Positions 10,381-61,065 of a stretch of 64,000 nt of DNA are shown here, piece by piece. Numbering within the stretch: the stretch's first letter is position 1; each line of letters starts with the position of its first letter. Source of the DNA: Methanosarcina vacuolata Z-761 (GTDB lineage: Archaea > Halobacteriota > Methanosarcinia > Methanosarcinales > Methanosarcinaceae). The position numbers and the translations under genes are program-made. Location of the stretch: the NCBI RefSeq assembly GCF_000969905.1, contig NZ_CP009520.1, positions 620,001 to 684,000 on the forward strand, given 5' to 3'. The notes under the pieces are model-generated. The model saw only the letters and a list, made by a program, of their open reading frames with translations, was not told the DNA's origin and did no database searches.

Positions 10381-10656
10381 GTAATATCATCTGTCGTCTT
10401 TAATAAAACCTTCAATGTCTAAATAATAGACTTAATATTATTTAAATGTATCCCACATCTATAACTTTCTCTAAACGTTCGTCTAATAATTAGACTATAT
10501 AACAAGTTCCTTTTTTTGTATAACAGGTTTTCAAAAGTATTACTTTAATAATATATAGATGGAAAATAAATTCACTTAGGGATATAACTTATTAAGTACA
10601 ACTATTATTTACAACAGTTCAATAAATTAATTCGTGTTACAACACTAACTCCTACT

Positions 10657-10787
10657 TTCCGCAGATGTACACAAAAATACCATCAATTTTCTCAATATGG
10701 CAGTAGCTTAAAAATTAGTCCATTTTCTAATAAGGGTATTTTGGACAATTAGGCAAATAAATTCGACATTTGTGTACATCTGCGGAA
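10657..10787. mobile_element. 131-bp inverted-repeat element (MITE-like)
   Basis: TTCCGCAGATGTACACAAA (19 bp) at 10657 is repeated exactly in inverted orientation at the right end (TTTGTGTACATCTGCGGAA, ending 10787). The 93-bp interior is AT-rich and non-coding. Size and perfect terminal repeats are those of a miniature inverted-repeat element. No target duplication is obvious at either edge, so exact borders are uncertain. Its ends differ from those of the GTAACTATTCAGG elements nearby. Confidence 0.7.
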
Positions 10788-10923
10788 TGTGGGCTAACTT
10801 ACTACTTTTTAGAAAATTCAGACTTTAGATGCAACCTCAAACATTAAGTGCAAAAGAGAGTTTAGGTGCAAAGCCGTAGAAGAAAAATAATCGCGTAAAT
10901 AGTAAAAATAAAGTAAAAAGTTA

Positions 10924-11119
10924 GTAACTATTCAGGTACCCTAAATACGTCAACTAACATCGATTTTGGTCACAGGGATCTGTCTAATAAGGGATTCATA
11001 GCAAAATTAAAAATGACCTCAGTTGTCATCAATTTATAAAATTGACTGAAGTGTATTGTAAATGCCAAACATTCTAAATTACGGCTTTTGATGTCGATTT
11101 AAGGTACCTGAATAGTAAC
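10924..11119. mobile_element. 196-bp MITE, copy 1 (IS66-type ends)
   Basis: Terminal inverted repeats GTAACTATTCAGGTACC and its complement (one internal difference, GTAAC against GTTAC) bound a non-coding 196-bp unit. It is flanked by an exact 8-bp target duplication, AAAAGTTA (10916-10923 and 11120-11127). The sequence is identical by eye to the copy at 12627-12822. The first 13 bases match the terminal repeat of the IS66-type element at 59539-61065, whose transposase could mobilise it. Confidence 0.93.
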
Positions 11120-11168
11120 AAAAGTTATTAAATTTTTATTGACAACGTTTAAATCGATAACTTATTTA

Positions 11169-11507
11169 TTATTTAGAACTTAAGTCGACTTTCATTCTAT
11201 TTTCGTCAACTAAAATTTCTCCGTTCTCTTTTTCATATTCGTCTATTTTTTCACTTAAATTTTCAAGTAGTTTTTTTGCTGCCTGGTTAGTCAATATTAC
11301 AAGACCGTCGCTGTGAAACAGTACCCTATCATCAGTTTCAAATTTTTCATTAAATAATTCGATGCGAAAATCTGAATCAGTACTTGTGACGTTAAGATTG
11401 GTTGCATAGATTTTTCTGAAAATTGGAGTGCGAGCTATTGATACCTGTTTTATTATTTTTTCTCCCATTTTTGGCTCTACCCCCTCATTACTATAATTTT
11501 CGTCCAT
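11169..11507 (-). CDS. DUF3467-like protein
   Basis: 112 residues. The central part (RTPIFRKIYATNLNVTSTDSDFRIELFNE) and the later AAKKLLENLSEKIDEYEKENGEI helix resemble the DUF3467 family, small proteins of unknown role whose members share an N-terminal YAN-type strand and a C-terminal helix running HAKxLLxALxENIxxYE. There is no membrane segment or signal. It lies 11 bp downstream of a winged-helix gene on the same strand, so the two are probably one transcript and may work together. The family name is recalled from its pattern, not from a search. Confidence 0.6.
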   Translation of the reverse strand: MDENYSNEGVEPKMGEKIIKQVSIARTPIFRKIYATNLNVTSTDSDFRIELFNEKFETDDRVLFHSDGLVILTNQAAKKLLENLSEKIDEYEKENGEILVDENRMKVDLSSK

Positions 11508-11518
11508 ATAATACCTCG

Positions 11519-12016
11519 TTAAGCAGATGCAGCGACAGTATCTATAATATATTTTTCACCGTTTAGTTTCTTAATTGGGAATTCTAGTTCATCGATGATA
11601 TCAGGTGATCTTTCTGAAAACATGAGCTCTGATGTTTTATTAGGATAATAAAAACATTCAATCACTTCGTAATGTGGAATTGGCCCAACTGCCTTTTTCA
11701 AATCTGATATAACTATACTTTCATTATTTTCATACTCTGAAACAAATAAACCGTTCTCAAACACTGAGCCAATTAATTTTCTTACAATGTCGTTTTTTGC
11801 AAGTTGATAACAATTTGCATTGTTATGTTTTTCTTTAATTTCAATTATTCCGTTATATATTAACTCAGGCAATTTGGAATTTACGCTTTGTCTCGATATT
11901 CCCACACATTCTGCAATTTCAGTTTGATTATAAGTAAATGCTGGATTTTCTGCTAAGAAATCAATAATTTTTATTTCAATTGTTTTTCCCAAGAAGTCCT
12001 GCAATGCCATATCCAT
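11519..12016 (-). CDS. winged helix-turn-helix regulator paired with DUF3467
   Basis: 165 residues. The N-terminal domain has a wHTH: KIIDFLAENPAFTYNQTEIA, then ECVGISRQSVNSKLPELIYN (recognition helix with SRQSVN), then GIIEIKEKHNNANCYQL as wing. The C-terminal 90 residues are acidic and unassigned; a sensor or dimer role is possible. A second ATG at 12010 has better spacing from GGAG (8 bases) than the first at 12016, so the real protein may begin MALQDFLGK. It is the first gene of a two-gene unit with the DUF3467 protein and is divergent from the gene at 12284, so it may regulate the intervening region. Confidence 0.72.
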   Translation of the reverse strand: MDMALQDFLGKTIEIKIIDFLAENPAFTYNQTEIAECVGISRQSVNSKLPELIYNGIIEIKEKHNNANCYQLAKNDIVRKLIGSVFENGLFVSEYENNESIVISDLKKAVGPIPHYEVIECFYYPNKTSELMFSERSPDIIDELEFPIKKLNGEKYIIDTVAASA

Positions 12017-12283
12017 TTCTCCACTTCATGTAATAAATTACTTTATTAATCTTTCATTGTATGTTAAAACTCATTTAGAAAAACAATTTATTAACAATGG
12101 GAAATACAGTAGACTGTTTGGTACCTTTATTGTATCTTGTGTTACGTCATAATTAGTACTGCATATACGTAAATAATGGTATTTAATTCTGTTGTATAAC
12201 TGTAAAATAGAATTGACAGTAAAAAATATAATTAACTGATATAAACATCAACTATATATTGTTAAAGATTATTGATTTTTTAG

Positions 12284-12616
12284 ATGGTTATAGACTGGGA
12301 AAATATCGAGTTTAATGAATATGAATTGATGATCCTGTATAAATTATGTTATAAACCTAGATTTTGTAGAAACGGACATTATGATGAAAAAAGCCTTATT
12401 CATGGTGTAAAGTCGAATAAAATTGGACTGATGAGAAAAGCTATCGATAGATTATACAAACTAAAGATTATAGATATATATCCAGCACAATCCAGACCAG
12501 ATTATTGTTTCCATCAAGAATGCTATCCTTACATCCTAGAAGTATTAAAGAGATATTCAGATCAACATGACTTTATTGATATGCAGACATTAAATATAAA
12601 ATACAAAAAACATTGA
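12284..12616 (+). CDS. hypothetical protein, possible HTH
   Basis: 110 residues, not recognised. The segment YELMILYKLCYKPRFCRNGH...DEKSLIHGVKSNKIGLMRKAIDRLYKLKIID is predicted helical and ends in an RKAIDRLYKLKII strand-turn as in winged-helix proteins, so a small DNA-binding protein is plausible. It is basic overall. No Shine-Dalgarno is evident before the ATG (GATTTTTTAG), so a leaderless transcript is possible. The stop codon lies only 10 bases before the second MITE copy. It is divergent from the wHTH/DUF3467 pair. Confidence 0.5.
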   Translation: MVIDWENIEFNEYELMILYKLCYKPRFCRNGHYDEKSLIHGVKSNKIGLMRKAIDRLYKLKIIDIYPAQSRPDYCFHQECYPYILEVLKRYSDQHDFIDMQTLNIKYKKH

Positions 12617-12626
12617 TAAACTATTT

Positions 12627-12822
12627 GTAACTATTCAGGTACCCTAAATACGTCAACTAACATCGATTTTGGTCACAGGGATCTGTCTAATAAGGGATTC
12701 ATAGCAAAATTAAAAATGACCTCAGTTGTCATCAATTTATAAAATTGACTGAAGTGTATTGTAAATGCCAAACATTCTAAATTACGGCTTTTGATGTCGA
12801 TTTAAGGTACCTGAATAGTAAC
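12627..12822. mobile_element. 196-bp MITE, copy 2 (IS66-type ends)
   Basis: Same 196-bp sequence and same orientation as 10924-11119, with terminal repeats GTAACTATTCAGGTACC/GTTACTATTCAGGTACC. It is flanked by its own exact 8-bp duplication AACTATTT (12619-12626 and 12823-12830). Different target duplications at the two sites show two separate insertions rather than one segmental duplication. Complete identity implies that both are recent. Confidence 0.93.
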
Positions 12823-13827
12823 AACTATTTTTATAATGTGATTTTTACGTTTTTGCACTAACTTTTCTCGAAAAACAGACGAAATGTTACAGGGCTTTTA
12901 ACTTTTTAAAAACTGACGAAGACGTTACAGAACCTGACTGAGGAATAAACTAAACGCACATAAACTAAACGCACATAAACTAAACGCACATGAAATTCTT
13001 CGAATAACAGGCACAAAGAAATGAAAGTACTTCTCACCTCACCCTTTTTTGACTATTGATCTTGTCATTACCTTGAGTAGTAAGGTTGTCCTAACTATGG
13101 TTTTTCAAACCATCGCTAAACTAATCAGTAAATTGCCATAGAAGGCTTGAATTTGATAAGGAGCCGAAAATCAAAAGGAGCACTGAGAGACAGTTTTGTT
13201 CCGTACTTTCATGCTAAATTAAAAAAATTCCACATAGTATAAAAAAATAGTTTTCAAGGCTCTAAAAAGTAGCTATGCAAAGACCCTCTAAAATAAGACT
13301 TTCTTGATTAAAAGACTGTTCTCAAATTTAATAAAGAACTTCGATAAAAGACTCTCCTAAATTTGAGAAAGAATCTTTTGAATACTTAATACAAGAAGAA
13401 GCCCAGGGTGCTGTATCTACTGTATCCCCCCAATACAGTCTCTCCGAATTTATGCTCCCCCAAGCACATTGATTCGAAGAAGAATCAACAACCCCCAGGA
13501 AATTCTTTTCTTTTCGATGATACCCCATCTCTATTCCCAAACTCCATCACATAGTAATAGCATAAATTATATTAAATAAATCATCTCAAAAATTGAATTC
13601 AACCGAAAAATTGTTTGACGTAAAAGATTTCAAGTCAATCATAGCTCTTTTCTAATCAGGAAATTTAATTTAAAGTTTCATGCCTATAATAAACTAAAAC
13701 CGAAATTTAATACTGCTTTTCAAGATGCTGTATTTCGAATCACCAATCAAGTTTCAGATCACAGAAAATAATTCTGAAACTTTACGGGTTTTGAGAGTAA
13801 AATTGATTTCGGGATGAACTCGTCAAT
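12823..13827. other. 1-kb gap without a confident gene
   Basis: Contains a 15-bp tandem repeat TAAACTAAACGCACA, three exact copies at 12946-12990. ATGAAAGTAC at 13021-13030 recurs inverted at 13203-13212, weak evidence for another decayed element. A 70-codon minus-strand frame at 13328-13540 has no ribosome site and a composition unlike its neighbours, and I do not call it. The rest is AT-rich and featureless. Confidence 0.5.
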
Positions 13828-42773: not shown

Positions 42774-42968
42774 GTAACTATTCAGCATATCAAAGAATGT
42801 CGGTTGATTGTGATTCCACTAAAACTGAAAAATCCAAAAAATAACTTATAAACAATGAAAAACGTAGTCAATTGCCAACAATCAAAGAAAATCAATTGAC
42901 AGAAATTTGTCTATTGAATTTTAGTAAAGATGGCTATTGACATTGTTTTATCTGGGCTGGATAGTTAC
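42774..42968. mobile_element. 195-bp MITE with IS66-type ends, different interior
   Basis: GTAACTATTCAGC at the left and GGCTGGATAGTTAC at the right form terminal inverted repeats related to those of the 196-bp MITEs and the IS66-type element, but the interior is unrelated to them. Flanks ATTTATTT (42766-42773) and CTTTATTT (42969-42976) match in 7 of 8. The paralogous 5' flank at 45091-45125 has the same sequence without the element, so this is a real insertion. It lies 31 bp upstream of the gene starting at 42743. Confidence 0.88.
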
Positions 42969-58975: not shown

Positions 58976-59411
58976 AAATTAGCTGTTTTCATTAATAGCA
59001 TTCAAAGTTTAATGAGATTTACAAATTAACGATAATTAGAAAGTTAAAATCCTGGTTTGAAGACCGAATAAAGTCCAGATTATTTTACCGGGAATTTCTC
59101 CGATTACCTGAATTTTCTCCGGTTAAGATTTGAAAGATCTGGATTTAAGACTTGAAAAGTCATATTAGTAAAGTAATATTAATATTCTGCCATCTCAAAT
59201 AAAAAATTGCAAAAAGAAATTGATAAAATGTCAGGGATTTTTGTTATATCCAGGTTATTTGACAATTTATAATCAAATAAAATATTTAGAAATTAATATA
59301 ATAAAACTAATTAAGTAATGACTGACTGACTGACTGACTGACTGACTGACTGACTGACTGAATGAAAATCCACATTATGGTGAGCTTATTGAAAAATAGG
59401 GAATTGTCCTC
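58976..59411. repeat. gap with (TGAC)n microsatellite
   Basis: AT-rich upstream region of ahbD, no gene. TGAC is repeated 10.5 times without error at 59319-59360. Such simple repeats are prone to length change by slippage. TATA-like runs near 59290 could serve ahbD. Confidence 0.85.
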
Positions 59412-59538: not shown

Positions 59539-61065
59539 GTAACTATTCAGGGTATAGCTAGCGGCGCTCCTTTGAGCGCCGCGAGAATACCCTCTAAAAC
59601 AGGTAAACCATTCTTTCTTATTGTGGAAATATATGCTCTAATTCTGCAGAAAGCTTCCGCTCCCCGTGTAGTTCTGAAAGTTCCTGATATTTTCTGCTGT
59701 AGTTTCATCATCCTGACATCTCTTTCTGCTTGATTATTCTCAAACGGAACTTTCAAGTCTTTCAGGAATCTCAGAATCTTTTCTTTATGTTCTATAAACC
59801 TATCAAGCAGATTCCTTGCTTTGGTTTTTGGATACATACCACGTTTTCCTTGTCTTTCAGGATTTAGAGAAGGTGGATTTTCTTCAATTCCTTTCGCGAC
59901 TACAGTATCGAACCTTTTTTCTAATGCCTTAACTTGTTCAAAATCCAGATATTTGCCCTGCTCTTTGCACTCATCAGTATACTTTTTCATTTCAGATAAC
60001 AGCTCATTCATATCTTTAGCCCATTGCTGTTTATAACTCTCCTCAATTCCAATAAGTTCTCTTTGGAGATGGGCATTGCAAAGAGCATGATCACAATTAT
60101 AACCGTTGTAAGGTTTCCATCCATCATGAACTGCTACCCATTTAAACTCTGGAAGAATTCCCATAGCATCAATAGCTTCTGATCCTCTTTTCGGATGAGC
60201 AAAATAACAAGTGTATTTGTCAGTAGAAGCTACATGAAGCCAATGTCTTTTTCCGTGAACTTTCATTCCAGTTTCATCACAATGGATAACAGGAGAAGAG
60301 AGTAACTTTCTCGAATTACGTTTTCAAATTCTTCAAGATTCAGGAAACATTCTCTTTCTGCTTCAATAATGGTAGCAGAACTGATTTTTATCCCCATTAC
60401 ATCATGAAACAATTCAGAAATCCTTTTATAAGGAATGAAATGGTGATTTTTAAAGTAAATTGCTGAAGCTACGATATTAGGACCATATTGAACTGGGGAA
60501 TTTACTGATTCTGGAAATTCAGCTTTATTTAACCTTCCACAGCAAGGACAGATCTTAATCTGACTTTGATGTTCTGTAACAATAAGATTTACAGGCGGAA
60601 TATCAAAAACCTGTCTTACCTCATAAGCTTTAACTTCAACATCCTCAAGATTCTGGCCGCATTCTTCGCAACAGTTCAAAGAATGCTCTATTACCTAATC
60701 AGGATTATCTACCATTTCGAGAGTTGTTCCTGGATGACCTTCTTGACCTCCAGGTTTCTTGCCACTCTGTTTACGGAGACTTTTTGGATTAGGTTTTCCT
60801 TTGGAAATATAGTCACTAGAAGGAGGTTTACTGCTGTTTCGGCTGTTTTGATTTAAGCGAAATTCTAAAACTTGCAATCTTTCAGTGAGGTCTTTAATTT
60901 GAGATTCAAGACTTATAATATAAGCAATAACTTCAGGGTTTGAAGCACACAAAGCAAGAATCTCTTCACGTTTCATCAAGGAAGAAAATGGTTCATTTTA
61001 TATCCAATTTTTCCTCGGAACGAGGAAAAATTGTGTAGCCTTAACAAGGCTACCTGAATAGTTAC
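59539..61065 (-). mobile_element. IS66-family insertion sequence (1527 bp)
   Basis: Terminal inverted repeats GTAACTATTCAGG at 59539 and its complement ending 61065, with exact 8-bp target duplication ATATAATC on both sides (59531-59538 and 61066-61073). GTAA ends and 8-bp duplications are IS66 traits. It carries only the tnpC-type transposase, as in the ISBst12 subgroup. Subterminal hairpins are present at both ends (GGCGCTCCTTTGAGCGCC near the left, GTAGCCTTAACAAGGCTAC near the right). Confidence 0.95.
59547..60976 (-). pseudogene. tnpC: IS66-family transposase with in-frame TAG and a frameshift
   Basis: Read from ATG 60976. The N-terminal coiled coil (LESQIKDLTERLQVLEFRLNQ) and the HPGTTLEM segment come first; then an amber codon at 60697-60695 (NPD-TAG-VIEHS) in unbroken frame; then the IS66 zinc finger (CCEECGQNL ... 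KICPCCGR). Near 60294-60310 one base is missing relative to the family, so CDETGMKVHGKRHW resumes in another frame. The DDE residues are all present (CDETG, VHDGWKPY, NNQAERDVRM). It ends LAIP at 59547, with the TGA inside the terminal repeat. The TAG could be read as pyrrolysine; the frameshift makes the enzyme probably inactive unless recoded. Confidence 0.88.

Follow-up and report, generated by a model that had tools for sequence, protein, structure and literature searches.

We analysed a stretch of 64,000 nucleotides from Methanosarcina vacuolata Z-761 (hereafter, the window), in which two short units of the same sequence enclose three genes encoding a DUF3467 protein, an HTH regulator and a 110-aa protein (11169-12616). 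The initial annotation had described these units as identical 196-bp copies, each with its own 8-bp target duplication, and both statements held: the coordinates are exact, the copies have the same orientation, the same length of 196 bp and 100% identity, and the duplications are perfect and different from each other (AAAAGTTA and AACTATTT; Table 1). Both copies stand immediately 3' of open reading frames, and their terminal inverted repeats are 17 bp long with one mismatch. Being short, non-coding, bounded by inverted repeats and a duplicated target, and dispersed in multiple copies, the units are MITEs. The 4.56-Mb genome has no third identical copy, and the next full-length copy is 83% identical. 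Two other repeats lie close by: an imperfect inverted repeat with 46-bp arms that share CGCAGATGTACACAAA and are separated by 51 bp (10651-10793, just left of copy 1), and a 15-bp unit (ATAAACTAAACGCAC) in three tandem copies (12945-12994, just downstream of copy 2).

Table 1. Elements, target duplications and conserved segments in the window
Feature	Coordinates	Strand	Sequence	Basis or remark
Copy 1, 196-bp non-autonomous element	10924..11119	+		Sequence comparison and lineage profile
Copy 2, 196-bp non-autonomous element	12627..12822	+		Identical to copy 1; lineage profile
Target duplication, left of copy 1	10916..10923	.	AAAAGTTA	Exact repeat
Target duplication, right of copy 1	11120..11127	.	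AAAAGTTA	Exact repeat; single in G011
Target duplication, left of copy 2	12619..12626	.	AACTATTT	Exact repeat
Target duplication, right of copy 2	12823..12830	.	AACTATTT	Exact repeat; single in G011
Left terminal inverted repeat	copy 1 10924..10940, copy 2 12627-12643	+	GTAACTATTCAGGTACC	Slowest-evolving alignment columns
Right terminal inverted repeat	copy 1 11103..11119, copy 2 12806-12822	-	GTTACTATTCAGGTACC	Positions 13-17 covary with left end across lineage
Conserved block L, motif forward	copy 1 10951..10969, copy 2 12654-12672	+	GGCTATTGATRTTGWTTT	Lineage alignment
Conserved central block C, motif inverted	copy 1 11010..11031, copy 2 12713-12734	-		Lineage alignment
Conserved block R, motif forward	copy 1 11083..11100, copy 2 12786-12803	+		Lineage alignment
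Third, divergent lineage member, 195 bp, family B	42774..42968	+		Profile match, E = 1.6e-29
IS66-family element sharing the 12-bp tips of the units	59539..61065	-		8-bp duplication ATATAATC; broken transposase

Both units have GTAACTATTCAGG at the left end, whereas their right ends read GTTACTATTCAGG. Counted with its one-mismatch form, GTAACTATTCAGG occurs seven times in the window; shuffles give an expectation of 0.08. Six of these occurrences correspond to the termini of the two units and the IS66-family element, and the seventh is the left end of the third lineage member. The initial annotation had the ends of the units starting like those of this IS; the 12-bp tips are indeed shared, but the right ends read GTTACTATTCAGG.

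In a related Methanosarcina (G011), orthologues of the three window genes (11169-11507, 11519-12016 and 12284-12616; DNA identity about 76%) are present and both insertion sites are empty, with one target copy each; the alignment of the empty site is clear at copy 2, and shorter and more gapped at copy 1. Therefore, copies 1 and 2 are independent insertions that postdate the split from G011. Synteny with this genome fades past the insertion sites. The copies are not repeats within a larger duplicated block, as their flanks are unrelated, and a composite transposon made of both was ruled out, considering that its outer flanks are different duplications and that the G011 trio has neither copy. 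Their identity suggests that the insertions are recent, and later conversion may have homogenised them. The chance that two random insertions fall 1.7 kb apart is about 8 in 10,000 by simple proportion, which makes local hopping, or a lost (third) donor copy, a plausible explanation for their closeness.

We also looked for the unit elsewhere. With BLAST, 11 of 31 Methanosarcina genomes were seen to contain relatives, most aligned over most or all of the length, and an alignment showed that the interior is common to three groups of the same genome (group A, to which the window copies belong, and groups B and C) and to a group from two other genomes (G002/G023). We built a sequence-only profile of the lineage, named R1, which gave 39 matches in the genome of the window; they fall at 32 places, and about 23 are near full length. 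Across the class, R1 had matches in 73 of 200 genomes, 26 of which are Methanosarcina. The length is within 193-198 bp in 57 of the 65 distinct elements compared, despite a median pairwise identity of 59%. As far as these comparisons indicate, the lineage is old, multi-copy and found across the class. The length spread of the archaeal elements is tighter than that of bacterial ones, which mostly reflects homology. Indels, counted as a possible sign of a length constraint, amount to 4-5 events per 100 bp versus 7 in an intergenic control, but the net length of that control was also stable. Four elements from another family of the same order (L337-L339 and L343) are 168-170-bp relatives with the same tips, similar subterminal motifs and a shorter middle.

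Two other natures for the unit were ruled out. In the lineage, only the inverted repeats pair, with inner positions 13-17 covarying between the ends, and we found no internal consensus structure and no Rfam match, which excludes a structured RNA. Similarly, the lineage has no conserved or usable open frame, and a coding element was rejected.

What the core does contain is a motif of about 17 bp, with a consensus near GGCTATTGATRTTGWTTT, that self-comparison of the alignment found in three copies, forward at positions 28-46 of the element, inverted at 87-108 and forward again at 161-178. The three motif pairings rank at the top of 19,881 self-comparisons. Evolutionary rates were 0.99 for the three blocks, 1.28 for the remaining core and 0.38 for the tips, and the blocks are slower than the remaining core with p = 3e-4. 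In the genome of the window the motif has 45 matches, versus 4 for a reversed control, many of them within these elements.

The initial annotation had described the units as IS66-derived and mobilisable by the IS66-type transposase, and we next consider the IS66-family element of the window. A 1-bp deletion near 60309 splits its transposase, so that this copy cannot serve as the helper. The element also has an in-frame TAG at about 60695-60697, after MVDNPD. This codon was ruled out as damage, because it is also found in otherwise intact IS66 copies of the same genome (C2:2047506, 2188396, 2720530, 3862864 and 3882608) and of other Methanosarcina genomes; the damage is the 1-bp deletion. A TAG near MVDNP[DE] is present in most Methanosarcina copies, while the relative in G046, a genome from another genus of the family, has a sense codon (..DPDEVIVHP). 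In-frame UAG in transposase genes of Methanosarcina is already known (PMC3639795), and considering the intact copies as well, the IS66 codon is presumably decoded, as pyrrolysine. A GACT tandem run (59320-59361) lies upstream of the window element.

Intact IS66 elements reside in the same genome, and their tips are identical to those of the unit over 12-15 bp, including a 15-bp match, GTAACTATTCAGGTA; both make 8-bp duplications. A census of the 13-base tip in this genome (G000), allowing up to 1 mismatch, showed that the IS-length elements with these tips carry the IS66 transposase (PF03050). Against several IS66 types from the genus, the unit showed no similarity beyond about 12-17 tip bases, and none of the five IS66 elements examined contained the three-copy motif, even with up to 3 mismatches allowed. 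The link with IS66 thus stands as far as matching tips and 8-bp duplications are concerned, but it does not extend to the window copy, which is broken, nor to the interior of the unit, which is not IS66-derived.

The strongest association with IS66 was observed in G046, where 400 kb contain 32 elements of 194 bp in two subfamilies, mostly identical within each. Exact duplications flank 27 of the 32, and the left flanks are of 31 distinct kinds. The same 400 kb hold six 1622-bp IS66 copies that differ by 0-6 bases, and these share 15-17 tip bases with the 194-bp elements. The IS-length elements with these tips carry the IS66 transposase, and no homologue of PF00872 was found in the same 400 kb. 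This burst beside near-identical, intact IS66 copies speaks for IS66 as the mover, as an association and not as a proof. At one place (G046:C1:209980-210375, L408-L423 joined), one miniature element is nested in another, and each of the two has an exact duplication.

Another order of the class gave a different result at the tips. There, R1 matches span positions 8-191, i.e. the element without its tips, and ten such elements, which measure 195-197 bp and in most cases have an exact 8-bp duplication, carry GTAYGTGTTTAG as their tips. A profile of the Methanosarcinaceae elements trimmed of their tips still matches the GTAYGTGTTTAG-tipped elements (best E = 1.8e-14); it matched none of 99 other elements with the same tips as the unit, nearly all bacterial, and no shuffled control fell below E 0.02. 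The reverse profile, made from the other-tip elements, matched 24 of 65 elements, none of the 99 others and no reversed controls. Searches of genome slices with reversed-sequence decoys agreed in one direction, without any decoy matched; in the whole-slice search the reverse profile missed the more distant G046 elements and the window. One genome (G061) holds both tip types (L330 and L342).

The second tip type leads to a known family of transposases. In G051, a 1485-bp IS (L405:4585-6069) has GTAYGTGTTTAG tips and an exact 8-bp duplication, and carries blocks L and R at its two ends. Its transposase, the frame of which is interrupted in that copy, belongs to the IS256/Mutator family (PF00872, E = 1.2e-88). 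The miniature element L345, from the same genome, consists of 44 bp (86% identity) and 162 bp (97%) of the ends of this IS, and is a direct deletion derivative of it. When the Methanosarcinaceae profile was compared with the IS256-type IS, the match, which lies at an end of the IS, was modest (E = 2.4e-6 with tips, 0.0014 for the core alone), and the link from the core to IS256 is stronger via the miniature elements of the other order than directly. By these similarities, the core of the unit does not come from IS66, and its homology is with the subterminal sequence of an IS256/Mutator-family (PF00872) IS. The tips of the window copies, GTAACTATTCAG, differ from the GTAYGTGTTTAG tips of that IS.

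To place these elements in a wider context, we searched for short elements by the tips alone. At least 116 stretches with the exact 12-base tip were found in Planctomycetes, Clostridia, Bacteroidetes, Treponema, Deltaproteobacteria, Altiarchaea and others, with exact duplications in 64 of the 114 measured. The interiors of the 99 elements compared, nearly all bacterial, had no match to the core profile of the lineage. As judged by these matches, short elements with the same tips are not peculiar to archaea, and the tips alone are widespread. The GTAACTATTCAG-tipped elements with 8-bp duplications and unrelated interiors (L103-L218) suggest a transposase lineage of very wide distribution. Scans of viral contigs found no IS with these ends, and phage and plasmid collections gave one weak plasmid match; plasmid matches of the IS256 transposase were too general. 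The rarity in archaea that the initial annotation had assumed is contradicted by the wide presence of the elements in the class and of unrelated same-tip short elements in many bacterial phyla.

Among known systems, MITEs of archaeal IS have been described as 44 families in 30 genomes (PMC3852290, 2013). As presented in the available part of that survey, they are likewise short, non-coding and multi-copy, and fewer than 20 tip bases match a resident IS while the interior does not; unlike our case, neither an IS66-linked nor a 196-bp family is among the 18 new MITEs that it tabulates, and the same part describes no core common to two transposase families. Literature on IS66 MITEs in methanogens was not found. 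The closest insertion sequences each resemble the unit in one part. The IS66 tnpC-only type (PF03050 and PF13005), resident in the same genomes and with the in-frame TAG in its Methanosarcina transposase, has GTAACTATTCAG tips and 8-bp duplications, but the common sequence ends after about 12-17 tip bases. The 1485-bp IS256/Mutator element of G051 has blocks L and R at its ends, but its tips are GTAYGTGTTTAG and not GTAACTATTCAG.

Considering all these results, the best explanation overall is that the units probably belong to a MITE lineage moved in trans by IS66, with an IS256-related core and changed tips. An IS66-family (PF03050) transposase would recognise the GTAACTATTCAG tips and move the MITEs in trans, as tip identity and co-occurrence suggest, and in Methanosarcina this transposase would need its in-frame UAG decoded, presumably as pyrrolysine. 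The core may have come from the ends of an IS256-type IS, or may share ancestry with them. By keeping this core and changing its tips, the lineage would have passed to a mover of another transposase family, in either direction. Whether it indeed kept its length of about 196 bp and its three-site core, exchanged its tips and passed from IS256/Mutator to IS66 or the reverse is, in our estimate, an evenly balanced question. Gradual drift between the tip types, instead of a swap, is possible, because the two tips resemble each other (GTAACTATTCAGC and GTATGTGTTTAGC agree at 9 of 13 bases).

A rather unlikely alternative, although the best placed of those considered, is that an unseen IS256/Mutator-type helper that is also GTAACTATTCAG-tipped moves the elements, IS66 being uninvolved and the identity of the tips a convergence. 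This would agree with a core that either derives from the ends of an IS256-type IS or has a common ancestor with them, and with the 8-bp duplications that an IS256-type IS also produces. However, the census of G000 gave solely IS66-type elements of IS length, the 400 kb of G046 lack a PF00872 homologue despite fresh amplification, and tip bases 13-15 of the G046 elements match the resident IS66. Neither the G000 census nor the 400 kb of G046 yielded an IS256-type element whose tips are IS66-like; one could exist in other genomes.

It is improbable that the core is kept for a host function, e.g. as a regulator-binding site or a small RNA. Three motif copies kept across genera, blocks that evolve slower than the remaining core and the location of both window copies directly 3' of open reading frames could be read in this sense, but the absence of an Rfam match, of an internal consensus structure and of a coding frame speaks against it, and a role in transposition is suggested by the IS256-type IS, which also carries blocks L and R at its ends. 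Still less credible is the origin proposed by the initial annotation, an IS66 that lost its interior: the identical 12-15-bp tips and the 8-bp duplication fit, but the interior has no match to several IS66 types of the genus, the three-copy motif is missing, with up to 3 mismatches allowed, in the five IS66 elements examined, and the core matches IS256-type ends instead. That copy 2 arose by segmental duplication or gene conversion, with no transposition, as the sole identical pair of the genome, 1.7 kb apart and in the same orientation, might suggest, is hardly tenable in view of perfect but differing target duplications, unrelated flanks and two sites that are empty in G011.

MITEs are usually regarded as short-lived by-products that are bound to one parent element. 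If the lineage is indeed moved by IS66 and carries an IS256-related core, MITEs can outlive their parent element by adopting another transposase. The core would then not be filler, and it may hold sites needed with either enzyme, or sites for a host factor. Such a lineage, spread over the class, stable in length, conserved in its core and with tips of two kinds, would offer a tractable archaeal case, and the fresh burst in G046, with intact IS66 alongside, would open the question to bench testing.
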